Of a stretch of DNA of 64,000 nt, positions 6,177-54,246 are shown in pieces. The notes under the pieces are model-generated. The model saw only the letters and a program-made list of their open reading frames with translations, did no database searches and was not told the DNA's origin. Both the position numbers and the translations under genes were made by a program. This stretch comes from Rhodocyclaceae bacterium. GTDB taxonomy: Bacteria; Pseudomonadota; Gammaproteobacteria; Burkholderiales; Rhodocyclaceae. Within the stretch, counting starts at the first letter, position 1; every line of letters starts with the position of its first letter. Location of the stretch: contig JAJVIJ010000048.1 of assembly GCA_022072095.1 (NCBI GenBank), positions 1 to 64,000 of the forward strand. The letters run 5' to 3'.

Positions 6177-6194
6177 TGTCGGAAAACCTTACAC
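6177..6194 (+). promoter_or_regulatory. PEP-CTERM regulon box, copy A
   Basis: TGTCGGAAAACCTTACAC. Differs at one position from copy C (28159-28176, minus strand) and shares TGTCGG and TTACA with copy B (7773-7790). It begins 92 bp upstream of the TTGC of the -12 element at 6269, a normal distance for a sigma-54 activator site. The assignment as an activator site is inferred from conservation and spacing. Confidence 0.7.
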
Positions 6195-6257
6195 TCCCGG
6201 CCTTGTCGCCGTCGCAACCGACAGATATTCCATTGATTGTCAATGCCTAGTTTTGTT

Positions 6258-6276
6258 GGGTATGGGTTTTGCTTGA
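6258..6276 (+). promoter_or_regulatory. Candidate sigma-54 promoter, site A
   Basis: The -24 GG (6259-6260) and -12 GC (6271-6272) are 12 bp apart as required, but the -24 element is weak (GGGTAT instead of TGGCCT). The -12 region TTGCTTGA is identical to the two stronger sites B and C. Predicted transcription start near 6283, about 25 bases before the ATG at 6308. Confidence 0.6.
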
Positions 6277-6307: not shown

Positions 6308-7012
6308 ATGCACTTCCGCTGGTTACCAGCCGATCGCAAGCGCGCATGCGCGCTGTCGGCGTCGACACTATCGCTGGCACTCGGCGCCGTAAGCGCTGCA
6401 CAGGCAACCGGGCTCGCCGTCTATCAGACCGACTTTTCGAGCGGGATCGATTCGCAATGGAGCGCGGGCAGCGTGATTTCAGATGCGAGCCTGGGCGAAT
6501 ACCTCGGCAATTTCTCGCTCGATGGTGCGACGACGCTGACGCTTGGCGGACTGCCGTCGCATACGCAGATCACTCTGTCCTTCGACCTCTATTTGTTCAG
6601 CACCTGGGACGGCAACAATGCGGTTTATGGGCTGGACTCCTTCAGCATTTCGAGCAGCGCGCCAGCCATCGGTGGCAGTTGGACCTTCACCAATCACCAG
6701 CCAGAGGGCCAGAGCTATCCGCAAGCGGTACCAACGGAAAATTACGGCGGGCTGGGCAATATGGGCGCGACCTATGTCTACCGCGGCCTTGGACCGCTGG
6801 GTGATGGCGCTTCGTGGACCGCGGCCCACACCGACAGCGCCTTCAGCATCACGTTTGGAGGCCCGACGACACAGACTGACGAATGGTGGGGGATCGACAA
6901 TATTCAGGTGACCGTCACGCCGGTACCGGAACCCGCTGCCGCACTGTTGCTGATCGCCGGCCTGGGTGCGCTGGGCGTGGCGGCAAGACGGCGGTTCGGG
7001 TCGGCAGTTTAG
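6308..7012 (+). CDS. PEP-CTERM sorting domain protein 1
   Basis: Secreted protein of 234 residues with a signal peptide (basic start, hydrophobic stretch, cleavage near AAQATG), a beta-rich globular part (Phe/Gly/Thr-rich, possibly a jelly-roll fold), and a C-terminal PEP-CTERM tripartite signal: VPEP, a hydrophobic helix (AAALLLIAGLGALGVAA), then a basic end (RRRFGSAV). An exosortase would recognise and cleave the tail. The start is the ATG after GCAGGGACGAACC. It has its own box and sigma-54-like promoter and is followed after 30 bases by a second PEP-CTERM gene. Confidence 0.88.
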   Translation: MHFRWLPADRKRACALSASTLSLALGAVSAAQATGLAVYQTDFSSGIDSQWSAGSVISDASLGEYLGNFSLDGATTLTLGGLPSHTQITLSFDLYLFSTWDGNNAVYGLDSFSISSSAPAIGGSWTFTNHQPEGQSYPQAVPTENYGGLGNMGATYVYRGLGPLGDGASWTAAHTDSAFSITFGGPTTQTDEWWGIDNIQVTVTPVPEPAAALLLIAGLGALGVAARRRFGSAV

Positions 7013-7772: not shown

Positions 7773-7790
7773 TGTCGGGAACTTTTACAT
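7773..7790 (+). promoter_or_regulatory. PEP-CTERM regulon box, copy B
   Basis: TGTCGGGAACTTTTACAT, ungapped match to copies A and C in TGTCGG and TTACA. It begins 91 bp upstream of the TTGC of the sigma-54 -12 element at 7864, the same spacing as copy C. Confidence 0.7.
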
Positions 7791-7852
7791 AATTGTTTCA
7801 GCCTCTTTTCCCATCGGTAATCAAAACCATATATTTCAATATGTTGTATTTA

Positions 7853-7871
7853 TGGCCTGATTATTGCTTGA
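7853..7871 (+). promoter_or_regulatory. Sigma-54 promoter, site B
   Basis: TGGCCTGATTATTGCTTGA. TGGC and TTGC are at exact sigma-54 spacing, and the site differs at only two positions from the site at 28078-28096. The predicted transcript start near 7878 leaves a leader of about 25 bases before the ATG at 7903. The surrounding AT-rich stretch (7795-7890) fits an activated promoter with a bendable spacer. Confidence 0.8.
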
Positions 7872-7902: not shown

Positions 7903-8628
7903 ATGAATCCTGCCAACTGCTCGAAAACTGCCGCCATGCTGGTCTCGTCGGCGCTGCTGTGGTTCGCGCTGCCGGCCGGCGCCAGCACGATCTACAACTT
8001 CGCCTGTTTCGAGAACTGCGCCAACCTGGCCGCCGGTGCGCCGGCCCTGCTCGGCGCCCAGATGTCGATGGAGGTGGCCGATTACACGGTGACCGGTGCG
8101 ACCAACGACGTGACCTTCACCTTCAGAAACAATGTTGGTGTCGCATCGTCCATCACCGACATCTATTGGGATACAGGTACCACCGCATTGCTTGCGTCGA
8201 TCAACATCCTGAGCCAGTCGAGTGGGGTCAGCTTTGCGATGGGAGCGGACCCATCCAATGTCCCGGGCGCGACGAACATCAGCTTTACCGCGGACCAATC
8301 GGCGGACAGTGCCCCACCACCGATCGCGAGCGGCATCGACAGCAGTACGGAGTCACTGACCTTTCTCGCCACCTTGAGCGCGGGCAAGACCCTGGCCGAC
8401 GTCGTGGCCTCGATGAATTCGGCCACGGCCAGCGACCTGCGCGTCGCACTGCATGTGCAGGCGATCGCGGGCCAGAGCGCCGGCTTCGTCAACGGCAGCG
8501 GCGGTCCGCCACCGAACGGCACGCCGGAACCGGGGAGTATGGCACTGGTCCTCGCCGGACTCGGCGGGTTGGCTTGGGTCGTACGCCGACCGAAAGGGGG
8601 CACGGCCTCGGCGTCGGCCCGGTTCTGA
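7903..8628 (+). CDS. PEP-CTERM sorting domain protein 3
   Basis: Secreted protein of 241 residues: signal peptide to about LPAGAS, a beta-rich body with CFENC near the N-terminus, a Gly/Pro-rich linker (GGPPPNGTPEP), then the sorting helix (MALVLAGLGGLAWVV) and a basic tail (RRPKGG). I use the ATG at 7903; an in-frame TTG two codons earlier is less likely. It has its own sigma-54 promoter and upstream box and is followed by a rho-independent terminator. Function beyond surface sorting cannot be read from the sequence. Confidence 0.86.
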   Translation: MNPANCSKTAAMLVSSALLWFALPAGASTIYNFACFENCANLAAGAPALLGAQMSMEVADYTVTGATNDVTFTFRNNVGVASSITDIYWDTGTTALLASINILSQSSGVSFAMGADPSNVPGATNISFTADQSADSAPPPIASGIDSSTESLTFLATLSAGKTLADVVASMNSATASDLRVALHVQAIAGQSAGFVNGSGGPPPNGTPEPGSMALVLAGLGGLAWVVRRPKGGTASASARF

Positions 8629-20973: not shown

Positions 20974-22206
20974 CTAAAACACGACCTGGGCGCTGCCGAA
21001 CAGCGTCGTGGCCTGATAAGCAAGCCCGTCAGCGCTCGAAACCCTCTCGTCCTGGGACAGCGACAAACGCAGCGTGGTCGAACGCAGCGGTGCGTACACA
21101 ATACTGGCGGAATACAGATTGGTCGCATCGCGCCGCACCGGTATGGCCAAGGGCAGCGCGAAAAAACCCGGGTCGCCGAGAAAATAGCGTAACCGACGCT
21201 CAAAGCTCGCCTCGATCTGGGTCTTGCCGCTGATCACCCATCGCGGCGCGACACTCAGCGCCTTGGTGACATCGTAGCTGCTGAACAATTGCTCATCGGC
21301 GACGAGCTCCCGCCGCGCCGTGGTGGTCACGCTCCAGCCACCTCGTAGCACCCAGGTCCACGCCAGTCGCGCGCTCGGCCCGCTGAAATCGCGGGCCGAC
21401 AGGTTGGGGTACGAGCGCCGGACATGTGCGAGCCGCGCCTCGACACGGCTCAAGCCGTCATAGGGATGCGTGAACGTGAGCTCGGTTTCTTCCTGTTCGA
21501 AGCGTGTATCGGCGGTTGCAAACGGACCGATCGCCCGGTTCGGGTAACTGCCGTCACGGTTACGCAGCGTCAGGCCCAGGACGCCACCCCAGGGTGCCCG
21601 GTATTGGATCCCGCCCTCATGCGTGACCGACTTGGCATCCAAGGAGCGGCGTGCGGCGGTTGAGTTGCTCGTCTCGGACGCCGAGACACCGGCAAGCAGC
21701 CACCATCGAGAATCGACCCGATAGTTCACGAACAGCGAGCGCGGCCGCCGCGTCTCCAGATTGCGCGTCGGCGAACGAAAATCGCCGAATGATGTGAGCG
21801 CCTTGTCTCGCGACCAACGTCCCTTGATCTGCCAGTCATTGCCGATCTCGCCATCCCAGTTCAAACGGTAGGCATTGACGTCGTAGTTGAGAAAATCGAA
21901 TCGCCGGTAGCGGACCAGCGTACGCGTCGCGTCACCAAACAAGCGCTGCCGACCGATACGCTTGTCGACCAGAATACCGACCGTGGTCACGGTGCTGAAG
22001 TCGTCCTTGTCGCTGCGGCCGATGACCGCATTGGGGTCAACCGTGGGCGCCAGCCGGAACACATTGCTGTCGTGCGTGAGGTTTTGCGCCGCAAGAAAAT
22101 TGAACACATCACCCTCGTCGGCGACGGCATCACTCATCCGACATATCAGCCCGAGGCATGCGATCAGGCCGGCGGCGAACCGGTGCTTCGGGCTAGTCAC
22201 GGCCAT
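20974..22206 (-). CDS. epsL: EpsL-type outer-membrane beta-barrel protein
   Basis: Protein of 410 residues with a signal peptide (GLIACLGLICRMSDAVADE) and a body of alternating aromatic/charged strands ending in Phe (GSAQVVF), the sign of an outer-membrane beta barrel. The mature N-terminus LAAQNLTHDSNVFRLAP matches the exosortase-associated EpsL family, believed to form the outer-membrane part of the EPS exporter. It starts 253 bases from the divergent sugar transferase. Confidence 0.83.
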   Translation of the reverse strand: MAVTSPKHRFAAGLIACLGLICRMSDAVADEGDVFNFLAAQNLTHDSNVFRLAPTVDPNAVIGRSDKDDFSTVTTVGILVDKRIGRQRLFGDATRTLVRYRRFDFLNYDVNAYRLNWDGEIGNDWQIKGRWSRDKALTSFGDFRSPTRNLETRRPRSLFVNYRVDSRWWLLAGVSASETSNSTAARRSLDAKSVTHEGGIQYRAPWGGVLGLTLRNRDGSYPNRAIGPFATADTRFEQEETELTFTHPYDGLSRVEARLAHVRRSYPNLSARDFSGPSARLAWTWVLRGGWSVTTTARRELVADEQLFSSYDVTKALSVAPRWVISGKTQIEASFERRLRYFLGDPGFFALPLAIPVRRDATNLYSASIVYAPLRSTTLRLSLSQDERVSSADGLAYQATTLFGSAQVVF

Positions 22207-22422
22207 AAGGGCAATGGGGCAATGAAACTGAAACGATGAGTGATTGACTGAGGATGGCAGGAGTCCGAGCTAAACCGGATGGTACGTTCCTGCAGGCAGC
22301 GAAATCGCTTTCCCAGTAGGCATGGCCCGCCAATGCTAGCAGAAAGAACGCGGTGACAGTGTGACAGCCGATCATCCTGCCGATCGTGGCGTTTGTCGGG
22401 GCAAATCGTCACAGTTCGTTTT

Positions 22423-22428
22423 TATAAT
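22423..22428 (+). promoter_or_regulatory. -10 element for the EPS sugar transferase gene
   Basis: A consensus TATAAT, in an AT-rich patch, about 32 bases upstream of the ATG at 22460. The -35 region is poor, so an activator is likely. A TGTCGGGGCAAATCGTCACA stretch (22394-22413) just upstream loosely resembles the PEP-CTERM box but without sigma-54 spacing. Confidence 0.5.
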
Positions 22429-22459
22429 GTAGTCTGTCGCCCTGAATTATCTTGTCATC

Positions 22460-23854
22460 ATGATGGAAGCCTTGAGCCCTCCCAATCAACTACTCAAATC
22501 CAGTCTGTCCCTGAACTCCCTGGTCGGGATACTGCTGGACCCCCTGGTGATCGTGGCCGGTCTGCTGGTGAGCGTCTGGTGGCTGGATGACCAGTTCGAC
22601 CCGCCTTATGTAATCCTCGGCCTGATCGTGTTTTCATTGTCATTTCCCGGGACACCGCACTTCAATGCTCCGCGCGCGCGCACCGTCGTGCGCGAAACGG
22701 TGCTGCACTGGCTGATCCTGAGCGCCATTCTGCTGCTGTTCGGCTGGGCCAGTGGCTATCTGCGCGAATTTCCGGAAGGCGTGCTGCAAACCTGGTTCGT
22801 CGTCACCGCGTTTGCGCTGCCCATCGCACATCTGGGCGCTCGCTGGGGACTTCCGCGCATGCTGGTGCAGCAGGGTCTTCGCCGGCGCGCCGTCATCGTC
22901 GGCATGAACGAGATCGGGCTGCAGCTCGCCGAACGCGTGCGCGCCAACCCCTACTTGGGCGTACAGCTGGTCGGTTTTATCGACGATCGCGCGCGCGCGC
23001 GCATCGGCCACGCGACGGAGCGCCTAATCGGACGACTTGAAGAACTGGCCGAGATCGCCAAACACGAACACATCGATCTGATCTACGTTTCGCTGCCGAT
23101 GGCCTCGCAGCCACGGATATTGAAAATCCTCGATGACCTGCGCGACACCACGGTATCGACCTACTTCGTGCCGGACATCTTTCTGACCGATCTGATCCAG
23201 GGCCGCATGGACGAGGTCGGCGGCATCCCCGTCGTCGCGGTCTGCGAAACACCCTTCGTCGGGGCCAGCGGCCTGATCAAGCGCGGCAGTGACATTGTGC
23301 TGTCTTTACTGATCCTGACGCTGATCTCGCCGCTCCTAGCAGCGATCGCGCTCGGGGTGAAGATGAGCTCGCCGGGGCCGATCATTTTCAAACAGCGGCG
23401 TTACGGCCTGGACGGCAAGGAAATCATCGTCTACAAATTCCGTTCGATGACAGTCATGGAGGATGGCGGCGATATCCGCCAGGCCCGCCGTGACGACCAG
23501 CGCATCACGCGGTTCGGCGCGTTTCTGCGTCGCAGCTCGCTTGACGAACTGCCGCAGTTCGTCAATGTATTGCAGGGCAGGATGAGCATTGTCGGTCCGC
23601 GCCCGCACGCCGTCGCCCACAACGAGCTGTACCGAAAACTGATCAAGGGCTACATGGTCCGCCACAAGGTCAAGCCCGGCATCACCGGCTGGGCGCAGGT
23701 CAACGGCTATCGCGGCGAAACCGAGACCGTCGAAAAAATGGAAAAGCGCATCGAATTCGACCTGGAATACCTGCGCAAATGGTCGCTCGCCTTCGACCTG
23801 TGGATCATCGCAAAAACCGTGTGGGTGGTCTTTAGCGACCGCAACGCGTACTGA
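22460..23854 (+). CDS. Undecaprenyl-phosphate glucose/galactose phosphotransferase
   Basis: Initiates exopolysaccharide repeat-unit assembly by moving a sugar-1-phosphate from UDP-sugar to undecaprenyl phosphate. The 464-residue protein has four or five N-terminal helices, a CoA_binding_3-like Rossmann domain (RRRAVIVGMNEIGLQLAERV), one helix (SDIVLSLLILTLISPLLAAIAL) and the catalytic sugar-transferase domain (SSPGPIIFKQRRYGLDG; YKFRSM; FLRRSSLDELPQFVNVLQGRMSIVGPRPH). The usual WcaJ/EpsB layout. It is divergent from epsL. Confidence 0.92.
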   Translation: MMEALSPPNQLLKSSLSLNSLVGILLDPLVIVAGLLVSVWWLDDQFDPPYVILGLIVFSLSFPGTPHFNAPRARTVVRETVLHWLILSAILLLFGWASGYLREFPEGVLQTWFVVTAFALPIAHLGARWGLPRMLVQQGLRRRAVIVGMNEIGLQLAERVRANPYLGVQLVGFIDDRARARIGHATERLIGRLEELAEIAKHEHIDLIYVSLPMASQPRILKILDDLRDTTVSTYFVPDIFLTDLIQGRMDEVGGIPVVAVCETPFVGASGLIKRGSDIVLSLLILTLISPLLAAIALGVKMSSPGPIIFKQRRYGLDGKEIIVYKFRSMTVMEDGGDIRQARRDDQRITRFGAFLRRSSLDELPQFVNVLQGRMSIVGPRPHAVAHNELYRKLIKGYMVRHKVKPGITGWAQVNGYRGETETVEKMEKRIEFDLEYLRKWSLAFDLWIIAKTVWVVFSDRNAY

Positions 23855-24064: not shown

Positions 24065-24628
24065 TCAGACGATCTTGCGCCGAGTTCCCCACCATGCCGC
24101 CACGCCCGCCAAGGCGACCAGTGGTAGTGTGCCCGGCAGCGGCACCTGCGTGGGAATGATGACCTGATTATTGAAGCCTTTCACGTCCTGGCCCGGCCCC
24201 CAGATCAGGCCGAAGCTGAGCTGACCGTCTGCCGTTGCCAGAAACTCGAGGTCGGCCAGATGCACCGTGTCACCTGGCTGCAGGACATCGAGGTCGGCAT
24301 CGGCCAACAAAGACAGCTCGGCCAGATCGACGACGCCGGATGACTCCGAGGAATCCTGCAGCGATTCGAACAACGACGGGTCGCCCAGCAAACCGCCGAA
24401 CAAGGTCTGCGTCCAGGACAGAAGGCCGGCGGAGAAGCCGACGTCCAGATCGTAGGCCGACACGATCTGGCCACCGAGATCGGTCACGTCCACCGAAACG
24501 GTGACGGTTTGGCCCGTGGTCACATTCGTCACCGACGGCGTCAATTGCACCGCGGGCAGCGCCCAGACCGGCGCCGACAGGCTGGAAGCGATCGCCAGAC
24601 CAATCAACTTGCGAGTAGTGTCATTCAT
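24065..24628 (-). CDS. Cohesin-like domain protein with PEP-CTERM-like tail
   Basis: Protein of 187 residues: signal peptide (IGLAIASSLSAPVWA), a cohesin-type beta sandwich of about 125 residues (VTNVTTGQTVTVSVDVTDLG, then SAYDLDVGFSAGLL, typical of cohesins), and a C-terminal VPLPGTL + helix (PLVALAGVAAWW) + basic end (GTRRKIV). The tail is the VPLP variant of the PEP-CTERM signal. Cohesins bind dockerins; the gene 27 bases upstream in the same operon ends in a dockerin-type repeat pair. Inferred role: a surface-sorted receptor for that protein. Confidence 0.82.
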   Translation of the reverse strand: MNDTTRKLIGLAIASSLSAPVWALPAVQLTPSVTNVTTGQTVTVSVDVTDLGGQIVSAYDLDVGFSAGLLSWTQTLFGGLLGDPSLFESLQDSSESSGVVDLAELSLLADADLDVLQPGDTVHLADLEFLATADGQLSFGLIWGPGQDVKGFNNQVIIPTQVPLPGTLPLVALAGVAAWWGTRRKIV

Positions 24629-24655: not shown

Positions 24656-26479
24656 TTACTGCGTTGCACAATTGGTCCGGGTGCATTTCAGCACGCAGGC
24701 ACGGCCATCGTTGACCGTGATCAGCCCATCGTTATCGATATCGCGCGGATCGCCCGACTGGACGCGGGTGCCACGGGCGGCGAAGATCGCGTTCACATCG
24801 TTGCGATCGACATCGCCATCGCCATCGATATCGCAAACGAGCTGGCCGATACTGGTGACGGTGACGTCCTGCACGATCGGCGACTGATTCTGCGTATTGG
24901 CAGTAAGCCGCACCCTGACCTGGATGTAACGTCCGAGCTGATTGAAATCGACCCCGTTCGCGACCGGCGTGTAGGCCAACAGCGGCAGACCGGCTTCGGT
25001 GTCTGCAGTGCGGACTTCAGCGATCACGTTGGCCCCGGTCGGCACCGTCGCGCTCCACGACACCTTGCCCCACTTCGTGCCGGCCGTGCCACCATCCTGG
25101 ATCACGGTCCAGGTGCCGGTACCGGTGGTGATCGTGCGCGCCGCCGAGCCGGAGGCGTCCGAATAGGTGTAAGGCGACAGGCCCGAATTCAGCACACCGA
25201 GCGCGGTACCGTCGGTGCCCTTGAACTTGGAAATCTTGCTCGCGCCCAGATGCACCTGCCAAACATCGTTGTTGGCATCCGGCATGATGCCGCGCGAATC
25301 CGAGGCGGTGCCGGACTGCGCCGGCTTGTCCCAGATCACCGAGCCATCGGCGGGGCGAAACTTGACGACGCCACCGCTACTCTTGCTGACCACGATGTTG
25401 CCTTCACCATCGACGTTGACGCCCAGCGACGAATAAAAGACGTCCGCAGGCGACGAGAACGTATTCGTCACCGAATTGAACTCGGTATAACTGTTGCCGG
25501 AACCACCGAGGTATACGCGCGTCGTGTTATCCGCCGCGCGTCCCAGCGCGATGCCGTAATTGCTCGGTCCGTCGAAATGCGAAACGGTGTAGGGACCGCC
25601 ATTGCTCTGCGTGTTGGTTATTTTTCCCAAGCGGCCGGACAGGGACGCGCTCCACAGCACACCATCGCGATCGATCAGGCAGCCGTAGGGCGACCAGGTC
25701 ACCGCGACCGGGCCGGCTAGCGTATGACCGTCGGTGGCGCTGACTTTGTAGTATGCACCCCCGCTATACAGGCCGACCCAGAGATTGCCGTCGGTGCCGA
25801 TACACAGCGACCGCCCGAGCTGCCCGGGCTTCAGCGGAAAACCCGTCGTGCCATCGGGCACGCGCACCGCCCAGGCGATGCGTTCGTCCTTGATCTCGCT
25901 GTCGTCGATGACGCCGTTGCTGTTGGTGTCGATCAGGTCCAGCATCTCCGAAGCCTGGATCGCACCGTCGTTGTTTGCGTCCTGAGACGTGTCCATGATG
26001 CCGTTGGAGTTGCGGTCGACGAAGCCGTCGGCGAGGATTTTGAAAAGGAGCGCCGGCCTGCCGTCGAAATGCCGGTTGAGCACATAGGCATTGCCGTTGA
26101 TATCGACCGCGGTACGCGAAGGCGCCGGACCGCTCCAGGCGTCGTGGTTGCCGGTGCTGTTCACGCCGGTGTTGAACCAGGTGTGGTAACGGGCAACCTC
26201 ACGGCCCGGCGAGGCGCCGCTTTGCGTCGTATCGAATTTGGACAAGGTGTCCTCACCCGCATTGGCGATCCACAACACCGGGAAGGTCGTGCCGGTCACA
26301 TTGAGCTGCAGCTGGTTGTTGTTCGGGGCCGCATGGTTGACACCATCCAGAACGCCGACGTCGAACTGCGCATCCAGCGTGTAAGTGGTGCTGCCGGCAA
26401 GGGCCGGCGCAGCCATGACCCCGATCGACAGCGCAATCGGCGTAAGCCTGAGCAAGGGTGCCCGACTGAAATTGTTCAT
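24656..26479 (-). CDS. Secreted beta-propeller-like protein with C-terminal dockerin
   Basis: Protein of 607 residues: signal peptide (to about PALAGS), a long NHL/propeller-like region (residues about 60-430; LWIANAGEDTLSKFD, GNAYVLNRHFDG, GTDGNLWVGLYSGG), an insert with three tandem EF-hand-like loops (155-193), a beta-rich region, and from residue 549 a dockerin type I pair (DIDGDGDVDRND and DIDNDGLITVND) ending with three cysteines. It has no PEP-CTERM tail of its own. The start is the ATG at 26479 after AGGAGAACGC. Probably displayed by binding the neighbouring cohesin-like protein. Confidence 0.82.
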   Translation of the reverse strand: MNNFSRAPLLRLTPIALSIGVMAAPALAGSTTYTLDAQFDVGVLDGVNHAAPNNNQLQLNVTGTTFPVLWIANAGEDTLSKFDTTQSGASPGREVARYHTWFNTGVNSTGNHDAWSGPAPSRTAVDINGNAYVLNRHFDGRPALLFKILADGFVDRNSNGIMDTSQDANNDGAIQASEMLDLIDTNSNGVIDDSEIKDERIAWAVRVPDGTTGFPLKPGQLGRSLCIGTDGNLWVGLYSGGAYYKVSATDGHTLAGPVAVTWSPYGCLIDRDGVLWSASLSGRLGKITNTQSNGGPYTVSHFDGPSNYGIALGRAADNTTRVYLGGSGNSYTEFNSVTNTFSSPADVFYSSLGVNVDGEGNIVVSKSSGGVVKFRPADGSVIWDKPAQSGTASDSRGIMPDANNDVWQVHLGASKISKFKGTDGTALGVLNSGLSPYTYSDASGSAARTITTGTGTWTVIQDGGTAGTKWGKVSWSATVPTGANVIAEVRTADTEAGLPLLAYTPVANGVDFNQLGRYIQVRVRLTANTQNQSPIVQDVTVTSIGQLVCDIDGDGDVDRNDVNAIFAARGTRVQSGDPRDIDNDGLITVNDGRACVLKCTRTNCATQ

Positions 26480-26501
26480 GATGCGTTCTCCTGTGCGCGG
26501 G

Positions 26502-27644
26502 TTATTTCGAGTTCGCCGCGATGATCGACGTAAGCGGCGCCACCGCAGACTTACCGGCGGTGCGATTTGATGCCAGAAAAGGAACGGGCGCTTGGTCCTG
26601 ACTGCCACCGGCGCTCAGCCGCATCGCTTCACCACCGGAAAGCGACATGCGGTAAATCTGTGAGATGCCGTCACGCAGGCTCAGAAAATAGAGACCGGAC
26701 CCGTCCGCCGCCCAGGCCGGCGTGTCGTCATGCTTAGGGTGGCGCGTCACATTCGTGACCCCGGTGCCATCCGCATTCATGACGAAGATGTCACCGTGGG
26801 CGCGGTCGAGCTTGTCCTCACCGCGGCCGGAAACGAAGGCTATCCGTTTGCCATCCGGCGACCAGACCGGCATCGAATTGATATAGCGATTGTCCGTCAG
26901 GCGTACCGGATTCGTGCCGTCGGCATTCATCGTGTAGATATTGATCGAATAGTTCTTTTCGGCGGCGAACAGGATCTTGCCACCGTCCGGTGACCAGGAT
27001 GGGCTCGACTTCGGGTCATCGGAGAGCACGCTGGTCAAATCCTTGAGCCCGGTGCCGTCCGCGCTGACCACGAGCACCTGACTACGGATGCGCCCCCCCT
27101 TGCCGTCGACGAAACCGAGAAAGACGAGCTGTCGGCCATCGGGCGACCAGATCGGCGGACCTTTGTCGTAAGACGTATCGGTCAGGCGTTGCAGCCCGCT
27201 GCCATCGGCATTCATCACGAACAGGTTCGCGTGACGATCCCGGTAGGAGCGGAATGCGATCCGGCGGCCATCGGGTGACCAGGACGCCGCATTGTCCGGA
27301 CGTCGCTCGTTGGTCAAACGTTTGACGTTCGAGCCATCAGCGTCCATGACGTACACCTCCATGTTGCCGTCACGCTGCGAGGTAAACAGCACGCGGGCAC
27401 CATCGGGCGACCAGGCAGGCTCGACGTTGTCCCCCGGCCCGCTGGTCAGCACGCGCAAACTCGAGCCGTCGCCACTCATCGCATGAATCTGGCTCCCACC
27501 CTCCTTGGTCGCTACGAACAGCAGCCGCTCGCCATGGAGTTTCGGTCCAGCCCCATAGGCCATGCCGGACAGCGACGTCATGCCGAAAACCCCGACTGCC
27601 CCAATCGCCAAGTACAAACTCTTTGCTATAGCGACTTGTCTCAT
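26502..27644 (-). CDS. Secreted TolB-like PD40 beta-propeller protein
   Basis: Protein of 380 residues with a signal peptide (IGAVGVFGMTSLSGMAYGA) and six PD40 repeats, each with a WSPDG-type turn (PAWSPDG, ASWSPDG, PIWSPDG, PSWSPDG, PVWSPDG, PAWAADG) and a VMNADGSGLxRLT-type strand. This is the TolB C-terminal propeller without the TolB N-terminal domain, so it is not tolB; no tol-pal genes are nearby. Inferred to be a periplasmic or secreted protein-binding scaffold belonging to the surface operon. Confidence 0.83.
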   Translation of the reverse strand: MRQVAIAKSLYLAIGAVGVFGMTSLSGMAYGAGPKLHGERLLFVATKEGGSQIHAMSGDGSSLRVLTSGPGDNVEPAWSPDGARVLFTSQRDGNMEVYVMDADGSNVKRLTNERRPDNAASWSPDGRRIAFRSYRDRHANLFVMNADGSGLQRLTDTSYDKGPPIWSPDGRQLVFLGFVDGKGGRIRSQVLVVSADGTGLKDLTSVLSDDPKSSPSWSPDGGKILFAAEKNYSINIYTMNADGTNPVRLTDNRYINSMPVWSPDGKRIAFVSGRGEDKLDRAHGDIFVMNADGTGVTNVTRHPKHDDTPAWAADGSGLYFLSLRDGISQIYRMSLSGGEAMRLSAGGSQDQAPVPFLASNRTAGKSAVAPLTSIIAANSK

Positions 27645-27656
27645 GCCTGACCTCGC

Positions 27657-28004
27657 TCAGCGCATATGCAGAAAATGACCGCCACCGATACGCTTGTCCG
27701 CCGCATCGAGAACGTCAACCGCATACTTGCCCGCCACACCAGGGCGCACCTCCACGGCCAGCGATCCGTCCGCCTTGGCTACTTCCGACTGCACATGCTT
27801 CTGCCCGGCCGGATCCGTAACCAAAACCTTGATGGCTTGGCCCGGAGCCAAGCCTTGCCCCGTCACCTGCAGCGTCGTGCCGGTGCTGGACGAGGGTACC
27901 GATACCGATAAAGGCGCCGCCACGGCCATCGAGTGAAGCGCCCCCCCGACGATCAGGCTGAGGAAAACGTTCCGAACCATGAAACGCGTTGAGCTCGTGA
28001 TCAT
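27657..28004 (-). CDS. Small secreted Ig-like domain protein
   Basis: Protein of 115 residues; signal peptide (FLSLIVGGALHSMAVAAP) then about 80 residues that look like a single immunoglobulin-like or invasin-type beta sandwich (TGTTLQVTGQGLAPGQAIKVLVTDPAG, GKYAVDVLDAADKRIGGGHFLHMR). I do not recognise a named family. It is the first gene of the operon, 67 bases after the predicted sigma-54 transcription start and 12 bases before the PD40 gene. Confidence 0.72.
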   Translation of the reverse strand: MITSSTRFMVRNVFLSLIVGGALHSMAVAAPLSVSVPSSSTGTTLQVTGQGLAPGQAIKVLVTDPAGQKHVQSEVAKADGSLAVEVRPGVAGKYAVDVLDAADKRIGGGHFLHMR

Positions 28005-28077: not shown

Positions 28078-28096
28078 TCAAGCAAGAATGAGGCCA
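28078..28096 (-). promoter_or_regulatory. Sigma-54 promoter of the cohesin/dockerin operon, site C
   Basis: Read on the minus strand: TGGCCTCATTCTTGCTTGA. It has TGGC and TTGC at exact sigma-54 spacing and differs from site B (7853-7871) at two positions in the spacer. Predicted start near 28071. It drives the four leftward genes from 28004 to 24065. Confidence 0.82.
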
Positions 28097-28158
28097 AATT
28101 TACAACCATCTGTTTTTATGTGATTCGTTGGCATTTGTAAGTCATGTTTGGCCACCAT

Positions 28159-28176
28159 GTGTAAAGTTTTCCGACA
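28159..28176 (-). promoter_or_regulatory. PEP-CTERM regulon box, copy C
   Basis: Read on the minus strand: TGTCGGAAAACTTTACAC, 17 of 18 identical to copy A at 6177. It starts 91 bp upstream of the -12 TTGC. Flanked by TTGGCC/GGCCAA repeats (GTGGCCAAAA at about 28180 and GGTGGCCAAAC at about 28150). Confidence 0.75.
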
Positions 28177-28482
28177 ACATTTTGGCCACTCATTAAATAG
28201 GAATGAAATTGATTATCCTTTATACAAAATAGATTGGATGCCTGTTTGCTGCGTTAGTGACCAGCCGAACAGCTCGGCGAAGGGCCTGCCTCCGATGGTA
28301 GCCGCGACAGGTGGCCGGAACCTCGACGAATCGGCCATCAAGTCCCCCGGCCGGATGAGATCGGCGAGGCCCCAAGGACCGTGGGCTGCGACGTATAGCC
28401 GGACATGCGGCGGTCCACGAACGTATGGCTGCGTGTGGAACGCCTTCGAATCAACCGCGACCAACAGGGCGCGTTGCCCTGC
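28177..28482. other. Unassigned stretch between the surface operon and recR
   Basis: About 300 bases. The first 60 are AT-rich; the rest has the window's normal GC. Open frames exist on both strands (for example 28213-28464 minus), but I see no ribosome binding site or family match. It might hold the recR transcript terminus or a decayed gene. Confidence 0.3.
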
Positions 28483-52983: not shown

Positions 52984-54246
52984 TCAGTAAATGACCTTCT
53001 CTTCGCGCAGACGCTCGATGCTTTGTGCGTCCAGACCCAGTATCTGCCCATAGACATAGGCATCGTGCGCACCCAGCTCGGGAGATGAGGCCGACAACGT
53101 CAGGTCGGTAGCGATCATCCGCCAAGGCAGGCGATACAACAGCTCCTCACCCATGATCGGGTGGGAAACGGCTTGGCGCACACCACGCGCCGCATAGTGC
53201 GCATCATCGAATTGCTCCTCGACGCTCAGCACCGGCGTCGCCGGCACGCCTAGCGGAACGAGCTCGGCCAACACCGATTCCCGACTCCGGCCCGCCGTCC
53301 ACTCGGCAAGCCGCGCCTCGATCTCGCCACGCGCCGACATACGGCCGGCTTGGCCAGCGAGATCGGCGCGATGCGCCCAGTCGCCCTTGCCGATGGCCAT
53401 GCACAGCGCTGGCCATTGCCCGTCGTCCTCGATACTGATCGCGACCCACGAATCGTCGCCGGCGCAAGGGAATATGCCGTGCGGGCAATGGCGTCTGTGG
53501 CCATTACCGGCAGGCTGCGGCGCCTGGCCAGAAAACTGGAAGTCGAGCATGGCTTCGGCGAGCGGTGCCGCACCGACCTCCATTTGCGACAGATCGATAT
53601 ATTGACCCTGCCCGGTCTGCTCGCGATGCCAGAGCGCGACCAGCAGCGCAAACAACGCATGAACGCCGGAGCTGGAATCGTTCAAGCCGAAATTCATCAT
53701 GCCGTTCGGCGCCTCGTTCTCATATCCGATCAGCGCCTCGAGGCCGCAATAGGCCGATATCACCGGCGCGTAGCCGCGCAAGTCCGCGATCGGGCCAAAC
53801 TGGCCGGCTGTAGACAGCGAAATCATGATCAGCTCGCCATGCTCGCGCGCCAGCGCCATGTAGTCGAGCCCGAGTGCGGCGAGCGTGCCGGGCGTAAAGT
53901 TTTCCAACACCACGTCACTCTTCGCGGCCAGTTGGCGGAACAGGTCGGCGCCGCGTTCATCACGGATGTTCAGCCGCACTGAAAGCTTGTGCCGGTTCAA
54001 ATTGTGAAACAGTGGCACCAGTTCGATCGACTTGCCCGGAATGCGCAGCTTCTTGCCATCGACGATCGGCGCACCGCGCAAGCGGGAGTTGTCCAGCCGC
54101 TCACTGTGTTCGATCTTGATCACTTCCGCGCCGAGATCGGCCAGGAACGCAGCCGCCATCGGGCCAGCCCAAACCCAACCCAGGTCGAGCACCCGAACTC
54201 CGGAAAGCGGCTTCGAATGCGCTTCGGGGGCTTGCGACATGCTCAT
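52984..54246 (-). CDS. Family III CoA-transferase (CaiB/BaiF), second copy
   Basis: Enzyme of 420 residues; DLGWVWAGPMAAAFLADLGAEVIKIE is the N-terminal CoA-binding motif and LNDSSSGVHALFALLVAL contains the likely catalytic Asp. Its ATG at 54246 overlaps the stop of the upstream transferase (ATGA), so it is coupled and may form a hetero-oligomer with it. Substrate unknown; it would move CoA from a donor thioester onto a carboxylic acid. Confidence 0.87.
   Translation of the reverse strand: MSMSQAPEAHSKPLSGVRVLDLGWVWAGPMAAAFLADLGAEVIKIEHSERLDNSRLRGAPIVDGKKLRIPGKSIELVPLFHNLNRHKLSVRLNIRDERGADLFRQLAAKSDVVLENFTPGTLAALGLDYMALAREHGELIMISLSTAGQFGPIADLRGYAPVISAYCGLEALIGYENEAPNGMMNFGLNDSSSGVHALFALLVALWHREQTGQGQYIDLSQMEVGAAPLAEAMLDFQFSGQAPQPAGNGHRRHCPHGIFPCAGDDSWVAISIEDDGQWPALCMAIGKGDWAHRADLAGQAGRMSARGEIEARLAEWTAGRSRESVLAELVPLGVPATPVLSVEEQFDDAHYAARGVRQAVSHPIMGEELLYRLPWRMIATDLTLSASSPELGAHDAYVYGQILGLDAQSIERLREEKVIY

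Follow-up and report, generated by a model that had tools for sequence, protein, structure and literature searches.

A predicted cohesin-dockerin operon behind the PEP-CTERM box and sigma-54 element, and the stepwise spacing of that pair

Genes for PEP-CTERM proteins in proteobacteria are often preceded by a pair of motifs, in which a 17-nt motif ending in TTTACA (motif 1) is followed, after a spacer with a mean of 62.8 nt, by a −24/−12 sigma-54 site (motif 2) (Haft et al., 2006; PMC1569441). PrsR was proposed as the activator, its binding having been deduced from phylogenetic co-occurrence; a few sites were found before genes other than PEP-CTERM genes, and the spacing was given solely as a mean, a spread and a range (PMC1569441). 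In a DAP-chip experiment, the five PEP-CTERM targets predicted for a PrsR homologue of Desulfovibrio were recovered with that protein (PMC3333781). In Aquincola tertiaricarbonis, RpoN-dependent transcription of the PEP-CTERM gene pepA has been measured and its −24/−12 start site mapped, and an enhancer upstream of this promoter has been predicted (PMC9850573).

The window analyzed here, namely the whole 64,000-nt stretch of a Rhodocyclaceae contig, contains such a pair in front of a four-gene operon on the minus strand, and two further copies on the plus strand. The features are as follows.

28159..28176, minus strand: PrsR-type box (Haft motif 1), TGTCGGAAAACTTTACAC
28080..28096, minus strand: sigma-54 −24/−12 element (Haft motif 2), TGGCCTCATTCTTGCTT
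27657..28004, minus strand: gene 1, 115 aa, with a signal peptide and an Ig/filamin-like domain; a GGGAGG ribosome site precedes the ATG
26502..27644, minus strand: gene 2, an exported TolB-like (PD40) beta-propeller
24656..26482, minus strand: gene 3, a propeller that carries two dockerin-like Ca-binding loops at its C-terminus (DIDGDGDVDRND ... DIDNDGLITVND)
24065..24628, minus strand: gene 4, a predicted cohesin domain with a PEP-CTERM-type tail (VPLPGTLPLVALAGVAAWWGTRRKIV)
6177..6273, plus strand: copy A, box and sigma-54 element, preceding a PEP-CTERM gene that ends at 7012
7773..7869, plus strand: copy B, box and sigma-54 element, preceding a PEP-CTERM gene at 7903-8628

The site before the operon agrees with the element of Haft et al. 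(2006; PMC1569441) in its sequence features: the 17-nt box ends in TTTACA, the downstream element carries the GG and GC of −24/−12, and the gap of 62-63 nt (62 from the box at 28159-28176, 63 from the 17-nt box) falls within the described spacers of 32-92 nt. The sigma-54 element, which in its longer form spans 28096-28078 on the minus strand (TGGCCTCATTCTTGCTTGA), has its −12 GC about 76 nt before the ATG of gene 1. As in the published cases, the upstream non-coding region is large, with 478 bp separating gene 1 from recR, its upstream neighbor on the same strand, and PrsK and PrsR are encoded in the genome. They lie in tandem on contig 2 (TIGR02916, 794 bits, and TIGR02915, 721 bits, respectively), both above cut-off, and an exosortase is encoded in the same genome. 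Since the pair matches the element of Haft et al., the element itself is already known; judged by its sequence, the box/sigma-54 architecture is the published PEP-CTERM cis-element, and the operon is a new member of the group that it precedes. Two differences stand out. The pair here precedes a four-gene operon whose last gene is of the PEP-CTERM type, rather than a single PEP-CTERM gene, and its spacing proves to be quantized, as described below. The operon site shares with pepA of Aquincola the −24/−12 element and a predicted upstream enhancer, and would share its RpoN dependence, whereas pepA is a single PEP-CTERM gene for which no cohesin or dockerin has been described (PMC9850573).

The sequence-only reading, from which this analysis started, had noted that the box is identical to that of copy A at 17 of 18 positions and that the sigma-54 element differs from that of site B at two positions; both comparisons were borne out (TGTCGGAAAACTTTACAC versus TGTCGGAAAACCTTACAC at 6177-6194, and TGGCCTCATTCTTGCTTGA versus the element at 7853). 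The distance of 91 bp that it gave between box and element is counted from where the box begins and extends to the −12 TTGC; taking the −24 TGG as the end point makes it 80 bp. Its description of box, element and spacing as identical at three sites is slightly overstated, because box B matches at 14 of 18 positions, the −24 of site A is weaker (GGG) and one spacer is off by 1 nt (counted from the 17-nt box, A 64, B 63 and the operon site 63); the sites are near-identical. Its argument against a chance origin of the box stands, three matches having been found against 0.01 in shuffled windows. A third near-match to the box alone, at 53892, lies within an ORF without a sigma-54 site and was rejected. 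Two direct copies of GTGGCCAAA flank the operon box, one on each side (28147-28189, minus strand).

When the whole 2.8-Mb genome was searched with the composite pattern, copies A and B, the operon site and a single weaker match on contig 18 (TGTGGGCAAGGGTTACA) were recovered, and the reversed control gave zero matches; the contig 18 match has a poor box and is probably due to chance. Broader patterns yielded nine box and sigma-54 sites, seven of which lie directly upstream of genes with VPEP/VPAP/VPVP-type tails. The other two precede the operon and a cluster of HprK-related kinase A (TIGR04352, TIGR04353) that contains no PEP-CTERM gene. The latter site (L038:2924-3040; contig 10 of the same genome, 34923, plus strand) has a spacer of 84, and its cluster is a candidate for a PrsR target outside the PEP-CTERM genes.

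The four genes are separated by gaps of about 12-27 nt. It had been claimed that two of the products have no sorting tail; in fact three have none, and the fourth ends in a PEP-CTERM-type tail, which is the reason for placing the operon in the PEP-CTERM regulon. The tail reads VPLPG instead of VPEP and scores 17.7 bits, just under the Pfam cut-off of 20.7, and most orthologues have clear VPEP-type tails. By sequence, the cohesin domain of gene 4 falls below the Pfam cut-off, but its fold is supported by an AlphaFold model (pLDDT 71), for which the best 50 PDB matches are all cohesins (top E 6e-6, TM 0.6). The assignment of the gene 3 tail as a dockerin is weaker and draws on two loops, both present and mostly conserved; Pfam Dockerin_1 stays below cut-off, with an E of 0.59 in one of five. 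Like the anchoring scaffoldins of cellulosomes, the predicted products would combine a surface-anchored cohesin with a dockerin protein. They differ in that the anchor is a PEP-CTERM-type/exosortase tail, where scaffoldins use SLH domains or sortase, in that the dockerin is borne by a propeller and not by a glycoside hydrolase, and in that the host is Gram-negative. No hydrolase was assigned among genes 1-4, which contain a single cohesin, so that the operon shows neither the dockerin-bearing plant-wall-degrading enzymes nor the multi-cohesin scaffoldin of a cellulosome. The cohesin-dockerin pair, best known from cellulosomes, would be placed under the switch of exosortase-sorted matrix proteins, an arrangement by which proteins that lack a sorting tail might be retained in the matrix of a biofilm or floc. 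In the literature searched, no paper was found that names PEP-CTERM alongside cohesin. Genes for EpsL (XrtB/PEP-CTERM-associated) and an undecaprenyl-phosphate glucose phosphotransferase adjoin the operon (20974-23854).

Relatives of gene 3 were taken from 79 loci. Those in proteobacteria mostly retain the dockerin-like tail and belong to the same operon, whose gene order is usually 1-2-3-4, with gene 1 found in most of the orthologous operons, and at almost every locus the product of the gene that follows gene 3 has a PEP-CTERM tail. In more distant relatives, the match reaches only to about residue 545, and genes 1, 2 and 4 were not found next to them, save for one match to gene 2 (L071). 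At about ten loci, the PEP-CTERM partner downstream of gene 3 belongs to another family that ends in FEQRFSQT-VPEP or a close variant (L042, L044, L045, L049, L061, L065, L067, L073, L081 and L085). No cohesin match was obtained in the tested members of this family; thus, the gene 3-type dockerin may also have partners of a different kind.

The box and sigma-54 pair is kept before a majority of these operons. In a leave-one-out analysis of 35 testable upstream regions, one truncated region having been set aside, 21 (including that of the window) scored 22-44 bits (p<=0.01, each above 100 of its own shuffles), and the remaining 14 scored 4 bits or less. A strict consensus had missed L036, L037 and several gammaproteobacterial sites, which were recovered by the model built from more loci. 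The expectation raised by the sequence-only reading, that the box would stand upstream of orthologous operons, therefore holds for 21 of 35 and fails for a minority, mostly in Sphaerotilaceae. In a 22nd operon (L086), which is split, one copy of the pair precedes the PEP-CTERM gene and another the unit formed by genes 2 and 3, strong evidence that the pair has been selected for expression of these genes. Over about 965 kb of relatives' sequence, scanned on both strands and consisting of the loci fetched for the operon, sites of at least 27 bits lie nearly all at operon promoters, the exceptions being the site before the HprK-related cluster and some additional ones in L075 and L086. Of 41 operon-bearing genomes, 38 encode a PrsR above cut-off, as do 56 of 150 relatives, figures that are indicative only because the two samples were drawn differently.

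The proposed link between the operon and the PEP-CTERM regulon is supported by the match to the published element, the presence of PrsK and PrsR, the seven of nine genome sites before PEP-CTERM genes and the conservation before orthologues. We consider it likely, at a probability of roughly 85%, that the operon site serves this regulon as an enhancer-dependent sigma-54 promoter, activated by PrsR, and that genes 1-4 encode an exosortase-sorted cohesin holding a dockerin propeller. A signal received by PrsK would lead to phosphorylation of PrsR, which would then bind the TGTCGG...TTTACA box and contact sigma-54 RNA polymerase at −24/−12, about six helical turns downstream. A single transcript of genes 1-4 would result, and its products would be exported. 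The gene 4 protein would be sorted by the exosortase via its C-terminal tail, and its cohesin may hold the gene 3 dockerin propeller by a Ca-dependent bond, either on the cell surface or within the EPS matrix.

The box might instead be occupied by a different enhancer-binding protein, or by a regulator other than PrsR that is common to EPS genes, leaving PrsR a bystander. At least four other NtrC-type regulators of this genome match the PrsR model at length, and the binding proposed by Haft et al. rests on co-occurrence (PMC1569441); however, PrsR alone among the regulators exceeds the curated cut-off, it is present in nearly all operon-bearing genomes, and the DAP-chip result for its Desulfovibrio homologue supports direct binding to PEP-CTERM targets (PMC3333781), so we regard this alternative as improbable. 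We think it just as improbable that transcription of the operon stems mainly from recR readthrough or from a sigma-70 promoter that is constitutive, with the sigma-54 site as an auxiliary: recR does lie upstream on the operon strand, and the box-less operons evidently use another promoter, but within the 478-bp gap between recR and gene 1 there is a sigma-54 site close to consensus, some 76 bp ahead of the start codon. That the box arose by local duplication within a PEP-CTERM/EPS locus and exerts no control over the operon is very improbable, for although copies A and B and the operon site all lie within 22 kb, the three sites have unrelated sequences between box and sigma-54 element, orthologous operons of distant species keep the pair in the same place in diverged sequence, and the split operon has two copies.

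Several observations speak against the favored explanation. The gene 4 tail, the cohesin and the dockerin all score under their Pfam cut-offs, and about ten loci have a PEP-CTERM partner of another family. A further observation is that 14 orthologous operons, all from Burkholderiales and mostly from Sphaerotilaceae, have no pair though their genomes encode PrsR. Absence of PrsR from the genomes with box-less operons was rejected as an explanation on this ground. Descent of the box-less state along a single gene lineage was rejected too, since at least eight changes are required on the gene 3 tree; the lack of a box follows the host family better than the gene 3 lineage. A C4-N-G4 palindrome, CCCC-N5-9-GGGG, lies before gene 1 in 11 of the 14 pair-less loci (L046, L047, L048, L052, L063, L064, L067, L070, L074, L081 and L102) and in none of the 21 box-bearing ones, with fewer than 0.5 expected under a Markov model at each spacing. 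It was first noticed on the same sequences on which it was counted, and thus serves as a lead rather than a test; as such, it suggests a change of regulator in Sphaerotilaceae.

What is new here is that the box-to-promoter spacing steps by about one helix turn. A strict pattern applied to 399 genomes of the order (Burkholderiales) returned 207 sites, with almost no matches to the reversed pattern. The distances from box to TGG cluster near 52, 63, 74, 85 and 96 nt, and the troughs between them are nearly empty; the resultant length is 0.77 at a period of 11.1, compared with 0.22 for the largest value under a smoothed null. The same spacing groups appeared when the class was sampled without the order: among the matches listed, at least 140 sites from 68 genomes gave a period of 11.3 (11.1-11.5 by bootstrap over genomes), and one site per genome gave an R of about 0.66 (p about 1e-13). 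One site was entered in the spacing counts at two spacings. No report of quantized spacing for PrsR was found in the literature searched. Read most simply, these distances indicate that PrsR has to occupy a single helix face with respect to the polymerase, and the phasing also speaks for the proposed PrsR/sigma-54 control of the operon. A wider proposal, which we hold to be rather likely although less so than PrsR control of the operon, is that the PrsR box has to be on one helix face, so that natural promoters arise only at whole-turn spacings (about 52, 63, 74, 85 and 96 nt) and record in their evolution an in-vivo repeat near 11.1-11.3 bp, that the same switch would control an undescribed exosortase-anchored cohesin-dockerin assembly, and that Sphaerotilaceae have been rewired to a C4-N-G4 operator. 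The stepwise spacing turns a loosely described pair of motifs into a precise promoter rule by which members of the regulon can be found. A repeat of about 11 bp rather than 10.5 bp agrees with data on looping by the lac repressor in vivo.
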